Of a DNA stretch of 49,437 bases, positions 31,260 to 46,938 are shown one piece after another; position 1 is the stretch's first letter; each line of letters starts with the position of its first letter. This DNA comes from Saprospiraceae bacterium (lineage in GTDB: Bacteria; Bacteroidota; Bacteroidia; Chitinophagales; Saprospiraceae), in the NCBI GenBank assembly GCA_020847915.1, contig JADLBE010000111.1:1-49437 (forward strand), given 5' to 3'. Below the pieces are notes generated by a model. It made no database searches, was not told the origin of the DNA, and saw only the letters and a list, made by a program, of their open reading frames with translations. Made by a program: the position numbers and the translations under genes.

Positions 31260-32645
31260 CTACCGCGCCACGCGGAATCCAAAGGCATCAAATCGCCCGG
31301 CAGGCACATCATCGTAACGGCGCCCCACTTCGGCCAGGGATGCGCCGAAAACACTGTTTCCACCTCGGAACACACGTTCTGTACCACTTTGCGGCCCGTG
31401 GTAATTGGCAGGAACTTCATCAGGGAAGGTATCTCCCCAATCCCAGCACCACTCCAAAGCGTTGCCGCTCATATCGTACAGATAAAAAGCATTGGTTCTG
31501 AGCCTTTTAACGGGGTGCGTACGGCCCCCGCTGTTTTTTTCAAACCAACCAACCAGTTCGAGGGTGTCGCTCCCGGCATATTTGGTGCGCTTTTGGGCGC
31601 GCGCTGCAAACTCCCATTCAATTTCCGTGGGCAGCCGGTAGCCAATAATTGTGGTATCGAGGCTGTAATCGTTGTCCGAAGTACCACTGATGGAATTTTT
31701 ATGTCCCAAACGTTGGTTCAGCCATTGGGTGTAGGCTACGGCTTCGTACCAGGAGACTTTGACAACAGGATGATCACCTTTGGGAACTTCTTTTGCGGGA
31801 AAGTTTAAACCTTGTGATTTGCAATACAAACCGTATTGCCACCAGGTCGTTTCCGTTTCAGCCATTTGAAAAGGCGAAACCCGGATCGGCACACTGCCAA
31901 ATGAGTCAGTTCCGCCGGGGATGTCCACCATTTTAGGATAATAACGTGCCTCGAGCGCCTGAAACCTCGTCCTGCTCAGCGCTTCGATGGCTGTGCGGAT
32001 ACCCAGGCGGTCACCTTGTCCATGGTGCAGGCTATCGCCTCGGAGCAGATAAACCGTGTCCATAATGCCCCAGGCGCGGTGGAGTGTCCCGGTTTCGGCA
32101 TACCAGTAAGCAAATTCAAGCAGTGAATCGCTGACCATTCCGGAAGCGACACCAAGCGCTACGGCTTCTGCCATTTGTTCGTATGCTTTGCCGTAGTTCA
32201 ACTGAAAACGGTAATGGTACGATTGTTCCAGAAACAGTTTGGCAAGTCTTATTTTTTCTTCCTCCAGCAGCTTTAAGGTTTCTTCAACGGCTTTTTGGTT
32301 TTTTTTCAGTTGGTCGTCGGACTTCCGGTGTCTGCGGGACGTGTTTGCCTCAGCTTTTTTTCGAACAACTTCCGCCTGCAGCGAATCAACCCTGGCTTTT
32401 TGAATAATGATCTGCGCTGCCTGAATATTTTGGACAACAGTTTCCTGTTCGGACCGGGCCAATTGAATTTCGTTCTTCGCGTTGCGTTCTGAAGCTTCGG
32501 CTTCTTTTGTTTTTGCTATGGCCAAATCCATCAAAACATTTGCCTCAACATGTGTTTGCCACGATTTCCACATCAGCAGCAAAGCAATGGCCAAAAGCAA
32601 CAAAGAAAAGCGGTTCACAACAGGGGATGCATTCACTGGTTTCAT
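31260..32645 (-). CDS. membrane-anchored coiled-coil protein with C-terminal formylglycine-generating-enzyme-like (SUMF1/FGE) domain
   Basis: N-terminal TM, coiled coil; MVDIPGGTDSFGSVPIRVSPFQMAETETTWWQYGLYCKSQG..., GYRLPTEIEWEFAARA, YDMSGNALEWCWDW, RVFRGGNSVFG. Confidence 0.9.
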   Translation of the reverse strand: MKPVNASPVVNRFSLLLLAIALLLMWKSWQTHVEANVLMDLAIAKTKEAEASERNAKNEIQLARSEQETVVQNIQAAQIIIQKARVDSLQAEVVRKKAEANTSRRHRKSDDQLKKNQKAVEETLKLLEEEKIRLAKLFLEQSYHYRFQLNYGKAYEQMAEAVALGVASGMVSDSLLEFAYWYAETGTLHRAWGIMDTVYLLRGDSLHHGQGDRLGIRTAIEALSRTRFQALEARYYPKMVDIPGGTDSFGSVPIRVSPFQMAETETTWWQYGLYCKSQGLNFPAKEVPKGDHPVVKVSWYEAVAYTQWLNQRLGHKNSISGTSDNDYSLDTTIIGYRLPTEIEWEFAARAQKRTKYAGSDTLELVGWFEKNSGGRTHPVKRLRTNAFYLYDMSGNALEWCWDWGDTFPDEVPANYHGPQSGTERVFRGGNSVFGASLAEVGRRYDDVPAGRFDAFGFRVAR

Positions 32646-32657
32646 AAAATCTTCATG

Positions 32658-33707
32658 TTAATCCGCCGCTTTTTTCAAAGGCAATGTTTTCCTGCGCACA
32701 TCCAGCTGAGTTTTCCGGATGGGAGTCTTGTCGTTGGCAGCCAGCAATTCCCGCATTTTGTTGTCGTCTGAAGTAGGCGTATTGATGCGATTGAGCCATT
32801 TGAGAGCCAACGCTTCATTTCTTTCACGGATGGCCATGATGGTGCAGATGGAAAAAACGGCATCTTCAAGGGTTCGCCGGTACATTTTGCCTTTGGTGAG
32901 TGCAGGAAGGTTGGGCACCGACTGAAAATCGGTTTTGCCCGTGCGTTTTGTTTGGGTAAAAACGTAACGGACCTCAACTTCCAATGCGTCGCGGGAGTGG
33001 CCGTACTGGCCCCAAATGACAAGATCAGCGCTGCAATTACTACCAATATCAGCGGCTTTGTCGAAATCAGGTGTGCTGTTGGACTGCAATGCTCCCTTGT
33101 ACACTTCAACCATGGAAGGCAAATTATTATTTGTGGTCAGCTCACTTATTATTTTTTGGAAGGCCAACTCAGGTTTGTCTGTATCACTACCGTACGATTG
33201 AAAGGGAAGGATCAAAACCCGCACGCCTTCGCGTGTGTAGGTGGGACAAACATCCGCTTTTTCTGTGGTAATCGATGCTTTGGACAATTTGGACGCATAA
33301 GACTTTTCAAACACCACCCATCCTGCAACAACCAAAAAAAGCAGTGAAAAAATAGCAACCAGTGCTTTTCGGGAAGAAGATGAAGTTGTTGGGGCCGGGG
33401 CCGTGTCGGCAATCCGGCCCGTTTGGGGCACACGTCCGCGCTCGAGCTCGTCGACGATGCCGTGGATGCTGTTGATGGCTTTGCTGTAAATCGGCCGGGC
33501 TTCATTGTAGGTTAAAATGCCTTTGCGTTCGTTTTGTTTGGCGCTCAACACTTCGGTTTCGATGACACGAAGGGTGCGAACCACTTCATCGTACACATCG
33601 TTGTCCTTCAACTTTTCGATCAACAAGTGCAGGGCGCCCGGCGTATCATCGTCGCGCAGCAGCAGGCGTACCTGTTCGAATAAAGCGTTGTTTTCCATAA
33701 AGGTCAT
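32658..33707 (-). CDS. EAD-like N-terminal helical domain - TM - extracytoplasmic TolB-N-like domain protein
   Basis: NNALFEQVRLLLRDDDTPGALHLLIEKLKDNDVYDEVVRTLRVIETEVLSAKQNERKGILTYNEARPIYSKAINSIHGIVDELE resembles effector-associated domain 11; TM ALVAIFSLLFLVVAGWVVF; RVLILPFQSYGSD...CSADLVIWGQY; start trimmed because first codons are repeat-encoded. Confidence 0.7.
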   Translation of the reverse strand: MTFMENNALFEQVRLLLRDDDTPGALHLLIEKLKDNDVYDEVVRTLRVIETEVLSAKQNERKGILTYNEARPIYSKAINSIHGIVDELERGRVPQTGRIADTAPAPTTSSSSRKALVAIFSLLFLVVAGWVVFEKSYASKLSKASITTEKADVCPTYTREGVRVLILPFQSYGSDTDKPELAFQKIISELTTNNNLPSMVEVYKGALQSNSTPDFDKAADIGSNCSADLVIWGQYGHSRDALEVEVRYVFTQTKRTGKTDFQSVPNLPALTKGKMYRRTLEDAVFSICTIMAIRERNEALALKWLNRINTPTSDDNKMRELLAANDKTPIRKTQLDVRRKTLPLKKAAD

Positions 33708-33780
33708 TTTATGTTCCCTACGGGATGACAAGGTTCCCTACGGGATGACAAGATTTAGTCTTGGTCATCCTGTAAGGACC
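33708..33780. repeat. Direct repeats of CTACGGGATGACAAGGTTCC-type, entering rmlD 3' end
   Basis: ttccctacgggatgacaagg x2 then ttggtcatcctgtaagga; same GTCATCCTGTAAGGA unit as 11641-11658. Confidence 0.85.
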
Positions 33781-42812: not shown

Positions 42813-44999
42813 TCATCGAATACCGCGACGGGCAAGTTTTTGCCTGCAATCTTCCATCGCATTTTGAACAAACGTTTTTGGATTCTGGTTCAGATTAACG
42901 GCCGACTGCAGGATGTCAAGGTCATCCGCCTGTTCGGGCAACAACTGTTGCATGATTTGTAAATTGTACAAAGCCTGGTTCCAGGCGCCGGCCTCATAAA
43001 AAGTCTCGTACATCCGCTGACGTATGCTGAACTGGGAAATCATGGTTTTCAGGGTACTTTGGCTGCGCAACAACAACGTGCGTTTCCATTCGGTGATGTG
43101 TGCCTGATCTACGCGGATGCGGTTGGGTTTGATGCGCAATTCGACGATGTGGTTCAGGCTGTCGTAGGCTTTCAAACTGTCGAGGGAAAGGTAATAATGG
43201 TGCAAAGCCAGGGCGTATTCATCTTTAAAAAAAAGCGAATCGCCCAAAAAGAGGTTTTCCTGAACAATGGAATGGTGCAGTTGCTGAAACCGGCGGGTAA
43301 TGCCGAGTTCGCGTTCCGGATCGGCTGGTGGAATACCCTGACTCAACACCCATGATTTGAACGGATTGGAGGCCAGCTCCTCCAGGGCCGGGACGGCGGC
43401 GTTGTAAAGTTCGTCGGCGGCATTGCGCGAAGCCTGGCGCATGTCGCTGTGGAGGGTATGTACCCAGTTCCAACCGAACCAGACGGCAAATATCAGGGTT
43501 AAAATAAGCGATGCGACCGACCACACCGCCACCCGCCGTGCCAGCCTGCGCCGTTCGGAAAGGTCACGAATTTGGGCTTCGGTAGCTTCGCGGCGTTTGG
43601 CTTCCTCGAGCAGGCGCTGTTCCAGTTCCGCCTTTTCCCTGTCTGCCTGCTCCATGTTGCGCCTGGTATCGCGCGAAGTGATGATGGCAGGCAACAACGT
43701 ATCGTGGCTGATTTCGTAGTAATAATCGTCTAGCCTGAGTTCTTTGCGCAGCAGGCGTGTCTCTACCAGTGTATCCAGAAAATCATGGTTGACGCTCCAG
43801 GTGTTGGTCAGGAAATCATCCACCATACTGCACCGGCGTCCAACGGGTGTAACCAAACTTTCCTCAATGAGGCAACGGGCCGTACGGATAAACATGGCCG
43901 GATCATCGATCCGACGACCGGTGCGACGCGCGTAGGTTTCCGGCAAATTTTGCAGTTGTTTCTGGTAAAAATCGCGGATTTCCCGGTCGAGTCCGGCATG
44001 CCCGTCGTAATAAGTACTGCCCACCAAAAAACCTGCCGGCTGGTTCTCAGCGATGATTTTTTCCTCAATGTGCTGACAGAGGATTTGCAGGTTGAACGCT
44101 TCAATTTCATCGCGTTGCCGGAGCGTCGGAAGTGCTTCCCCGGCTGTTTGCACGTCCCTGTCGCTGCGTCCGGCCAAAAAATCGAGTATTTCCGCCATGG
44201 ATTCCGGATGGTAACCAAACGTCGGACTGGCCCATGCACCCGCCGCAGCGGCCGGCGCCTCAATGGCCGCCTGAGCCTGTCTGCGGTTGAGCGGCTGAAG
44301 CTGGTATCTGTTTCGGAGGATGTTGGGTATAAGCGGGCTGATGTCGTCGAGCAGGTGCAAAAAATCGGAACGGATGGAAATGACCACCCGCAGCTCGGGT
44401 TGTTTTTCCCACCATTGCATGAGCTCTGAAGTGAGGCCTGCTTCACCAGACTGGAACCGTTGCAAAAGGTCATAACGCACAGCTTCGGGCATGGCTTCGT
44501 TGGCCAAATCGGCCAGGTCTGCCAGAAATTGTTTCCTGCTGCTATCGCTGTGGGCCAGGGTGAACACCTCTTCAAACTGGTCGAGCAGCAGCACCGGTGT
44601 GGCGGGCATACCGTCGAGATCGAAATCGAGTCGTTTTATGTTTTCCCAAAGCGTGGGATTCATGGTGTGCGCGGCATCGCGGCTGTCTGTTTGTCCTACA
44701 AACGGGTGTTTGCCCAGCACCGTGCGCACATGGTCGTTGAGGGGTATTGTCGTATTGTCGAGGCGCAAAAACAAAGGTGCGAAGCCCTGTTTTTCAAGTT
44801 CGGGCGCCACGCCTGCCTGGAGCAGGGAAGTTTTGCCAATGCCCGATTTGGCAAACATAACCACCAGTCTTTCCCGTACGATGAGGTTGGCCAGCCTTTG
44901 GATGTCCTCCATACGGCCGTAAAACACGCCGCTTTGGCTGCGCTCAAAGGGTTTCAGGCCCGGATAACGACGCGGAAGCTGCTCGGCGTTGTTGCTCAT
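42813..44999 (-). CDS. nSTAND-type P-loop NTPase with TM and C-terminal helical/TPR-like region
   Basis: YPGLKPFERSQSGVFYGRMEDIQRLANLIVRERLVVMFAKSGIGKTSLLQAG (Walker A), TPVLLLDQFEEVFTL (Walker B), VVISIRSDFLHLLDDISPLIPNILRNRYQLQPLNRRQAQAAIEAP; TM VAVWSVASLILTLIFAVWFGW. Confidence 0.9.
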   Translation of the reverse strand: MSNNAEQLPRRYPGLKPFERSQSGVFYGRMEDIQRLANLIVRERLVVMFAKSGIGKTSLLQAGVAPELEKQGFAPLFLRLDNTTIPLNDHVRTVLGKHPFVGQTDSRDAAHTMNPTLWENIKRLDFDLDGMPATPVLLLDQFEEVFTLAHSDSSRKQFLADLADLANEAMPEAVRYDLLQRFQSGEAGLTSELMQWWEKQPELRVVISIRSDFLHLLDDISPLIPNILRNRYQLQPLNRRQAQAAIEAPAAAAGAWASPTFGYHPESMAEILDFLAGRSDRDVQTAGEALPTLRQRDEIEAFNLQILCQHIEEKIIAENQPAGFLVGSTYYDGHAGLDREIRDFYQKQLQNLPETYARRTGRRIDDPAMFIRTARCLIEESLVTPVGRRCSMVDDFLTNTWSVNHDFLDTLVETRLLRKELRLDDYYYEISHDTLLPAIITSRDTRRNMEQADREKAELEQRLLEEAKRREATEAQIRDLSERRRLARRVAVWSVASLILTLIFAVWFGWNWVHTLHSDMRQASRNAADELYNAAVPALEELASNPFKSWVLSQGIPPADPERELGITRRFQQLHHSIVQENLFLGDSLFFKDEYALALHHYYLSLDSLKAYDSLNHIVELRIKPNRIRVDQAHITEWKRTLLLRSQSTLKTMISQFSIRQRMYETFYEAGAWNQALYNLQIMQQLLPEQADDLDILQSAVNLNQNPKTFVQNAMEDCRQKLARRGIR

Positions 45000-45049
45000 G
45001 TTGGGTAAAAAGTGTGTTTAATTGGCTTCAACTGGTTGACAAGGTAAGG

Positions 45050-46414
45050 TTAGCCCAGTGTTTCCACGTATTTTTTCAACGTTTCAGCAATGTCGGAAAG
45101 GTGCATGTCTTCCTGTCCGTTGCCAAATACCGGTTGGTTTTTGGTGGGCCGTGTGGTTTTCAACATGCCCAGGGGTGTACCGTCGAGGCTCATGGTTTTG
45201 AGCACGATGGGCATCACCAGGAAACGTGCGCGCGGGTTGTTGCGCGTGGCCAGGTCGTCGAGCAGGGCAAGTGCCGGATTGGCGTCGTCGAAAAAGTCGG
45301 CCGAAATGAGTGGCAAAACCACCTGGCATTGTTCCATTTTTTCCCTGATCCAGACCCCGACATCACCGGCACCGACGGCCTCGCGCAGGGTGTGTACGCG
45401 GAGTTTGAGGGGTTTGAGGTGTTTGATGAGCTGCTGACAGGCCTGGTCGTCGGTGCTTTCGTTGTGCAGGATAAGCACGTCGGCAAGGGCTGAACCGGAG
45501 TCGCTCACAGCATGCCCTTCGATGTTGTGAAAATGTCCGGTAAGGTTGGATACAAACGTTTCGATGTCAACTTTGGGAAATTCCATGCGGAATTCGCCCT
45601 GAAAAAACACCTTCGCGTGTGGCCCTGCATCGGGTTCGCCTTTCAACGGGTAAGCGAAAGGTTGGATGTTGTTGCGGCTGCTTTTAAACAACGCGTCGAA
45701 AAGCAGGCGCATGCTCCAGTCCTCAAAATCAAAACCCATAAACAGGTAAAAGCGCGGCATGTTGAAAGCCGCAAGCAGACTGTCCGGCAACCTTTCGTGT
45801 TGTGCGCCGGTAATTTTATTCACATAGCCAAGCTGGTCGCCGTAGGTAAGCACCAGCGATTCGGGTTTTTTGTAAAAACCAAAAAGGTTGTACACGAGCG
45901 GCGGTGCATCGTCGCCGAAAGTGTAAAGCGGGTCGGGACTGCTTTTGCGGAAATTGTAAAAATCAAACTGGTAATCGCGCACCGACTGAGCGTAGTAACG
46001 GGCGAAAAAGTCGTCGGGCGACGTGTTGATGATGATTTTAAATGGCAGGTCTGCCAATTGCTCGAGCATGGGGTGCAGCTCGGCTTCCCGCTCTGCTTTT
46101 TGGTAAAACTCCTGAACGGCCGCGATGATCATGGTGTCGGACAGGATGTTGCGCATGCGAAGGGTGCTGCACACCTGGGTAAGCGAGTCTTCTTCCGAAG
46201 GGGTAAGGGATAAGTTGTGTACCTGTACCAGGTGTCGGGCGCACATTTCGGTAAGTGGCTTGTAGGAGCCGTCAGGTTGCCGGGCGGCGATGGCGGCGGG
46301 ACCCAGAAAAAGCACACAACTGCCGTCTCGGATTTGTCGGGCAATGTTCTGGTACAAAACGGCCGGTAGTTCGGCAGACGTACCGGCGTCAGGACGGATA
46401 TCGGTTTGCGGCAT
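45050..46414 (-). CDS. SIR2-like + C-terminal TIR-like domain protein
   Basis: IARQIRDGSCVLFLGPAAIA, LPFKIIINTSPDDFFARYYA, PLVYNLFGFYKKPESLVLTYGDQLGYV, MPRFYLFMGFDFEDWSMRLLFDAL (SIR2-like); ADVLILHNESTDDQACQQLIKHLKPLK...WIREKMEQCQVVLPLISADFFDD (TIR-like). Confidence 0.8.
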   Translation of the reverse strand: MPQTDIRPDAGTSAELPAVLYQNIARQIRDGSCVLFLGPAAIAARQPDGSYKPLTEMCARHLVQVHNLSLTPSEEDSLTQVCSTLRMRNILSDTMIIAAVQEFYQKAEREAELHPMLEQLADLPFKIIINTSPDDFFARYYAQSVRDYQFDFYNFRKSSPDPLYTFGDDAPPLVYNLFGFYKKPESLVLTYGDQLGYVNKITGAQHERLPDSLLAAFNMPRFYLFMGFDFEDWSMRLLFDALFKSSRNNIQPFAYPLKGEPDAGPHAKVFFQGEFRMEFPKVDIETFVSNLTGHFHNIEGHAVSDSGSALADVLILHNESTDDQACQQLIKHLKPLKLRVHTLREAVGAGDVGVWIREKMEQCQVVLPLISADFFDDANPALALLDDLATRNNPRARFLVMPIVLKTMSLDGTPLGMLKTTRPTKNQPVFGNGQEDMHLSDIAETLKKYVETLG

Positions 46415-46587: not shown

Positions 46588-46859
46588 CCAACCACGAAGT
46601 GGTTGAATATGAATAGCTCCGGGTGAAACCCGGGGTTATGGTCCCCACGGGCCCGCAACCGCGAAGCGGTTGAATATGAACTCAGCCAGGAAAAGAGTGT
46701 AATCAAGCATTATTTCAAAAAGTCTGATCTGATGGCTATAATGTATTGTACAATAGCTTTATTGAGTTCATGTTCAACCGCTTCGCGGTTGCGGGCCCGC
46801 GGGGAAAACTACCCCGGGTTTCACCCGGAGCTATTCATGTTCAACCGCTTCGCGGTTGG
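46588..46859. repeat. Palindrome with 97-nt arms containing AACCGCGAAGCGGTT and CCGGGTGAAACCCGG mini-hairpins
   Basis: arms 46588-46684 and 46763-46859 aligned by eye, about 9 mismatches. Confidence 0.92.
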
Positions 46860-46938
46860 CAACTCACGGTTCATGCTCGGTTGGTGTCATGTCGACAGGA
46901 GGGAGACACCTGATGCCGCCGCATCAAAATAAATAAAA

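Follow-up and report, generated by a model that had tools for sequence, protein, structure and literature searches.

A Saprospiraceae gene pair combining a pseudo-SIR2-TIR protein with a membrane-anchored nSTAND1 NTPase: a candidate receptor-adaptor conflict system

Does a gene pair that brings SIR2 and TIR folds together with a STAND NTPase work by destroying nicotinamide adenine dinucleotide (NAD)? The question is raised by two minus-strand genes in contig JADLBE010000111.1 (C111; positions 1 to 49,437) of a Saprospiraceae bacterium, whose assembly (GCA_020847915.1) comprises 5.2 Mb in 534 contigs; this whole stretch of 49,437 nucleotides is called the window below. The initial annotation placed the two open reading frames 50 bp apart, where we also found them, and called them a candidate NAD-targeting immunity operon. 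The first gene encodes a SIR2-TIR protein, P0001, and the second a STAND protein, P0002. We arrive at another reading, to which we give somewhat better than an even chance: the operon would encode a membrane-anchored nSTAND1-transmembrane (TM) receptor, similar to nucleotide-binding leucine-rich-repeat (NLR) receptors, and a dedicated pseudo-SIR2-TIR adaptor that recruits effectors.

The SIR2-like domain that had been predicted at the N-terminus of P0001 is recovered by both profile and structure comparison. Residues 126-260 match Pfam SIR2_2 above cut-off (E = 1.4e-11), and the nearest folds of the AlphaFold model (mean predicted local distance difference test score, 84.6) are the SIR2 structures of ThsA, Avs5, KomC, and DSR2, with a Foldseek value of 3.8e-12 against ThsA. 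A phmmer search of P0001 against PDB gave no match, whereas the family profile did match, reaching 1.7e-9 against ThsA. We then aligned the window protein with SIR2 proteins that lack a paired STAND, taken from this genome and related ones. All three NAD-handling motifs are replaced: GAGxS is changed to GPAAI (residues 38-42), TTNxD to NTSPD with S132 at the asparagine position, and HG to FG with F178 at the histidine position. In a profile alignment, the motif columns of P0001 fall on TTNYD and KMHG of solved ThsA NADases. The catalytic histidine is absent from 64/64 paired SIR2 domains, 11 of which retain the catalytic asparagine, and is present in 15/15 clearly aligned unpaired SIR2 proteins (L103 and L106 were left out of these controls). 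The histidines of two known NADases, DSR2 H171 and KomC H146, appear as mutated residues in their structure entries. A compensating role is unlikely for Asn130, two residues upstream of S132, which does not vary among the seven nearest relatives examined but does across the wider family. Because the window protein has lost all three motifs, and every paired relative examined the histidine, NADase activity of this domain appears unlikely. The NAD-targeting role first assigned to the operon is not supported by this comparison, and motif loss rules out an NAD-depleting effector as the leading model.

Motif loss has not been accompanied by decay. Among sufficiently diverged pairs, the SIR2 domain has a ratio of non-synonymous to synonymous substitution rates of 0.01-0.11; a nearly identical pair that carries too few changes is set aside. 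In identity to the nearest sisters, SIR2 (80-82%) is the most conserved part of the pair, ahead of the NTPase (66-69%), TIR (63-67%), and the C-terminal domain of P0002 (32-38%). Such strong purifying constraint marks the domain as a pseudoenzyme that selection has kept, as opposed to one in decay. Three SIR2-nSTAND1 pairs from Nonomuraea (L244, L264, and L266) have intact TTNYD and HG motifs and are possibly active forms of the same pair; their existence suggests that the ancestral SIR2-nSTAND1 pair was active. A tree groups the histidine-less SIR2 domains as one clade (support 97/95), and with the motif columns masked a faster tree loses this clade and five deep sequences move. We dropped a single origin of the clade because its support depends on the motif columns.

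If the SIR2 domain is not an enzyme, what does the TIR-like domain predicted at the C-terminus of P0001 do? Its identity rests on the family: residues 312-406 match Pfam TIR_2 below cut-off (E = 0.0016), TIR_2 is found in 26/34 relatives (best E = 1.1e-9), and the family profile matches the TIR of Cat1 at 3.2e-6 and, weakly, that of the adaptor TIRAP (0.0056). The usual catalytic glutamate had not been obvious; the aligned residue is Leu384, and the nearby D386 and D387 vary among relatives. A scan of the wider family found TIR in 45 SIR2 proteins, EAD11 in 21, and the two together in none. EAD1 occurs in 3/16 proteins scanned, and the rest of the scan consists of truncated proteins, unpaired controls, or types that include an N-terminal EAD1. 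The TIR of P0001, which itself carries no EAD, fills the slot held by EAD11 or EAD1 in its paralogs. Two studies (PMC7159879, PMC8195603) propose that EADs couple effectors to core components through homotypic contact. Given the shared slot and the leucine in the glutamate column, the TIR of P0001 is probably an adaptor, one of the two roles (scaffold or adaptor) that the initial annotation had offered for it.

The partner fits its earlier description as a membrane STAND NTPase with a TM helix and a helical C-terminus. P0002 matches Pfam nSTAND1 (E = 6.5e-38), with Walker A (KSGIGKTS) and Walker B (LLLDQFEE) both intact; KSGIGKTS and a second motif, EISHDTLLP, are invariant across 16 orthologs. 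Its nearest folds are ORC/Cdc6, NLRP14, SAMD9, and Avs5. A TM helix follows nSTAND1 in 67/71 proteins, and the residues ahead of it mostly carry a net positive charge. Because the helix is positive-inside and an ATP-using domain must be cytoplasmic, the ATPase of P0002 is predicted to be cytoplasmic and its C-terminus should be extracytoplasmic. This C-terminal domain evolves fastest, at 32-38% identity where the SIR2 domain has 48-82%. The slot that it occupies holds a helical domain in the window protein and WD40, leucine-rich repeat (LRR), or FGE-sulfatase modules in paralogs, and where a protein ends soon after the TM helix, the next gene often encodes WD40, WG-repeat, or FGE-sulfatase. 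Since the STAND TM helix is positive-inside, the WD40, LRR, and FGE-sulfatase modules of the paralogs should lie outside as well. One nSTAND1 paralog (L070, 6570-10316) bears ~14 very high-scoring WD40 repeats, possibly near-identical and fast-evolving. The second nSTAND1 of the genome (G000:C499:2796-5483; L240) has an FGE-sulfatase C-terminus, and its contig ends where a partner gene would be.

Are the two proteins genuine partners? We examined 112 SIR2-domain matches to P0001 from 121 related genomes, and 103/112 have an nSTAND1 gene directly downstream on the same strand. This recurrence is far beyond chance and rules out a chance adjacency of two genes; homologs of the pair are co-located elsewhere. 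The SIR2 and nSTAND1 genes overlap by 4 bp in most loci retrieved. Some of the nine unpaired exceptions are contig ends; in four (G020, G025, G028, and G041) an orthologous STAND lies on another contig, with G016 in the same group, and G033:C405 falls outside both explanations. Up to ~10 such pairs occur per genome. The nearest pair-bearing relatives are Saprospiraceae-type metagenome bins; pairs are also present in Spirosoma, Fibrella, Chitinophaga, and other families, and more distant ones elsewhere in the phylum and in Nonomuraea (named hosts are drawn mainly from close orthologs). Plasmid pHALHY02 of Haliscomenobacter hydrossis bears a cousin in which SIR2 and nSTAND1 are followed by WD40 genes. 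A contig labelled Thermoanaerobaculia (L124; JAKLJF010000117.1) bears a 76% ortholog of P0001 and is likely a mis-binned or mislabelled Saprospiraceae contig.

The arrangement had not been recognised as a named system, and database comparison agrees. PADLOC-DB 2.0.0 gave only weak ThsA, ThsB, and mad1 matches for the window proteins (ThsA E = 0.015), NCBIfam gave nothing above cut-off for them, and in the open-access literature, subscription papers and supplements aside, we found no description of a pseudo-SIR2/nSTAND1 pair. We regard the pair as a variant, absent from PADLOC, of the EAD-coupled STAND conflict systems. These systems (Kaur 2020, PMC7159879; Kaur 2021, PMC8195603; Dore 2024, PMC10907252) share with it nSTAND1, EADs, FGE/lectin-like sensors, trypsin and TIR domains, and multi-copy families; the pair differs in having a pseudo-SIR2 as constant coupler of a two-gene core and a TIR in the EAD slot, neither of which the accessible text of these studies mentions. 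The EACC1 system (PMC7159879) is likewise two-gene and membrane-associated with constant and variable parts, but it uses a TM EACC1 domain and a caspase-fused component. Avs5 (AVAST type 5; PMC12931631) also couples a SIR2 fold to a STAND NTPase. Unlike Avs5, in which an active SIR2 NADase and the STAND share one polypeptide, the window and the 103 pairs have separate genes, and the pair has an inactive-looking SIR2, an added TIR, a STAND of the nSTAND1 family, and a TM anchor. Thoeris is related through ThsA, the nearest SIR2 fold, and through ThsB, to which the TIR is related, whereas P0001 has neither a SLOG call nor an intact SIR2 site, its TIR is fused to SIR2, and its partner is nSTAND1. 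SAMD9 (PMC5445408), an antiviral/apoptotic protein, joins a STAND-like NTPase to a variant Sir2-like domain; it differs in being one polypeptide with AlbA, TPR, and OB domains, in animals and actinobacteria, for which the accessible text describes no TM helix. KomBC, DSR2, and FAM118 share the SIR2 fold, and several have been solved as helical assemblies or filaments (PMC12700824), but these are NADases with catalytic Asn and His. We propose that the pair works most like the EAD-coupled STAND systems and, by analogy, like the receptor-adaptor pairs of NLRs and Toll-like receptors.

We suggest the following mechanism. First, a signal outside the inner membrane would bind the variable C-terminal domain of P0002. 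Second, the cytoplasmic nSTAND1 would change its nucleotide state and oligomerise. Third, the oligomer would nucleate the pseudo-SIR2, which has kept the SIR2 fold and perhaps an oligomerising habit and would have lost NAD hydrolysis. Finally, homotypic contacts of the clustered TIR tails would bring in effectors that carry a TIR, a task that would fall to EAD11 or EAD1 tails in the paralogous pairs. The output, we infer, would be immunity against phage or rivals, or cell death. A lead to an effector comes from the same genome, which encodes EAD11-FGE proteins and an EAD11-trypsin-TIR protein (G000:C415:1598-3226; L091 1598-3229). The latter is one of few other TIR proteins that Pfam TIR_2 and a search with P0001 found in the genome, and many genomes of the genus encode a close relative of it, sometimes split into trypsin and TIR frames. 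It is a candidate effector of the pair, as a lead only; adaptors with a TIR tail and those with an EAD11 tail could both, in principle, recruit it. A more ambitious version of the scheme is tentative: the operon may be a bacterial, outside-in counterpart of Toll-like and NLR receptors, in which an NADase effector became an adaptor within the same operon. Its sensor, outside the cytoplasm, would be exchangeable (LRR, WD40, WG, FGE lectin-like, or helical) and joined through the TM helix to a cytoplasmic STAND switch, while a catalytically dead sirtuin would serve as polymerising scaffold and its TIR, EAD11, or EAD1 tail would select the effector.

Several points weigh against a receptor-adaptor conflict system. 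The receptor, adaptor, and effector roles are proposed from sequence, and the topology of P0002 from hydropathy and charge alone. The evolutionary distances of the SIR2-TIR and STAND proteins do correlate, in support of the pair (r = 0.86), but the value ignores shared species phylogeny. The co-occurrence of pair and EAD11-trypsin-TIR protein in the genus (19/3/4/11) is suggestive, with a Fisher p = 4e-4 that ignores phylogeny and genome size, and the effector link leans on a modest TIR similarity of 34%. Tight co-expression is not always required, because SIR2-TIR and STAND are unlinked in five genomes. Histidine loss alone does not prove inactivity, because PaAvs5 functions with NG replacing HG (PMC12931631); the case for inactivity hence rests on the joint loss of GAGxS, TTNxD, and HG. 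Lastly, no phage or viral-contig relatives of the pair were found, and the chromosomal surroundings of the window ortholog are conserved across species of its genus and do not form a defence island.

The last two points favour a different role, to which we leave sizeable weight as a serious minority possibility: a receptor-adaptor that reports envelope stress or cell-surface state and alters physiology without killing. The neighbourhood of the window ortholog is kept across several species of the genus (hemD and DUF4271 upstream; serA-like and WD40 genes downstream), which indicates vertical inheritance. Where the pair is split (L042, L045, L047, and L048), SIR2-TIR directly follows the PadR and PspC genes, an envelope-stress context, and the STAND often adjoins a LytTR regulator. 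Against such signalling, multi-copy paralogs, exchangeable sensors, and EAD/TIR adaptors are typical of conflict systems, a cousin is plasmid-borne, and the presumed sensor evolves fastest. We favour the receptor-adaptor conflict system, with its immunity role an inference. A mobile phage-borne defence gene was rejected on the conserved synteny and the lack of phage or viral-contig relatives, the plasmid cousin notwithstanding. It is improbable, in our estimate, that the SIR2 and/or TIR pocket instead binds NAD, ADP-ribose, or a cyclic derivative, leaves it uncleaved, and gates the STAND. ThsA, a SIR2-fold neighbour, is controlled by an ADP-ribose-derived signal (its ligand is named in the title of structure entry 8bto), and the high conservation of SIR2 extends to the GF-D-F region beside the pocket, but GPxx stands in place of the nucleotide-binding GAGxS loop, and no signal-making enzyme is linked at the locus. 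The earlier reading, an abortive-infection operon in which STAND activates a SIR2 (or TIR) NADase, is very unlikely: it can call on the retained SIR2 fold, the intact Nonomuraea pairs, and the active NG variant of Avs5, and it is opposed by the three replaced motifs, the loss of PaAvs5 defence upon N110A, D112A, or change of Asn153 to Ala or Gln (PMC12931631), the leucine in the TIR glutamate column, and the variability of Asn130.

Coordinates of the pair and of other features are collected in Table 1. Upstream of the operon, at 46640-46870 of the window, lies an inverted-repeat element (AACCGCGAAGCGGTTGAA), whose core has 45 genome copies at <=1 mismatch (reversed control, 0). The window also holds a second conflict-type pair (31260-33731, minus strand), an EAD11 gene followed by an FGE-sulfatase gene.

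Table 1. Features of the window, with the evidence or remark for each
Feature	Coordinates	Strand	Evidence or remark
Gene 1: pseudo-SIR2-TIR protein P0001, 454 aa	45050..46414	-	First in pair; Pfam, AlphaFold, family profile
SIR2-fold domain of P0001, residues ~18-300	45515..46363	-	Motif alignment, family profile
C-terminal TIR domain of P0001, residues ~308-454	45053..45493	-	Pfam, AlphaFold, family profile
Intergenic gap, 50 bp	45000..45049	.	Between P0001 and P0002 genes
Gene 2: nSTAND1-TM-helical protein P0002, 728 aa	42813..44999	-	Pfam, nearest folds
nSTAND1 NTPase and helical switch region of P0002, residues ~12-470	43590..44966	-	Pfam, ortholog alignment
Single TM helix of P0002, residues 490-508	43476..43532	-	Hydropathy and charge
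Helical C-terminal domain of P0002, residues 512-728, fast-evolving	42816..43466	-	Identity comparison; proposed sensor
EAD11 protein with hydrophobic segment	32658-33731	-	Second conflict-type pair
FGE-sulfatase protein with N-terminal hydrophobic segment	31260-32645	-	Second conflict-type pair

In its ATP-driven switch, the proposed membrane receptor resembles the immune receptors of animals and plants; among animal TIR adaptors, many are thought to act as scaffolds. Here, across >100 sister pairs, the pseudo-SIR2 partner is suggested to be an effector-recruiting scaffold instead of a destroyer of NAD. If this is true, the SIR2 domains of bacterial conflict systems include more than NADases, one large lineage having turned scaffold, and a SIR2 or TIR fold alone would be insufficient for annotating NAD depletion. 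Sensor, switch, scaffold, and adaptor would be separable and interchangeable within the family, and STAND-to-effector signalling in trans would become directly testable in a family of >100 pairs, one of which is plasmid-borne in a cultured species, Haliscomenobacter hydrossis.

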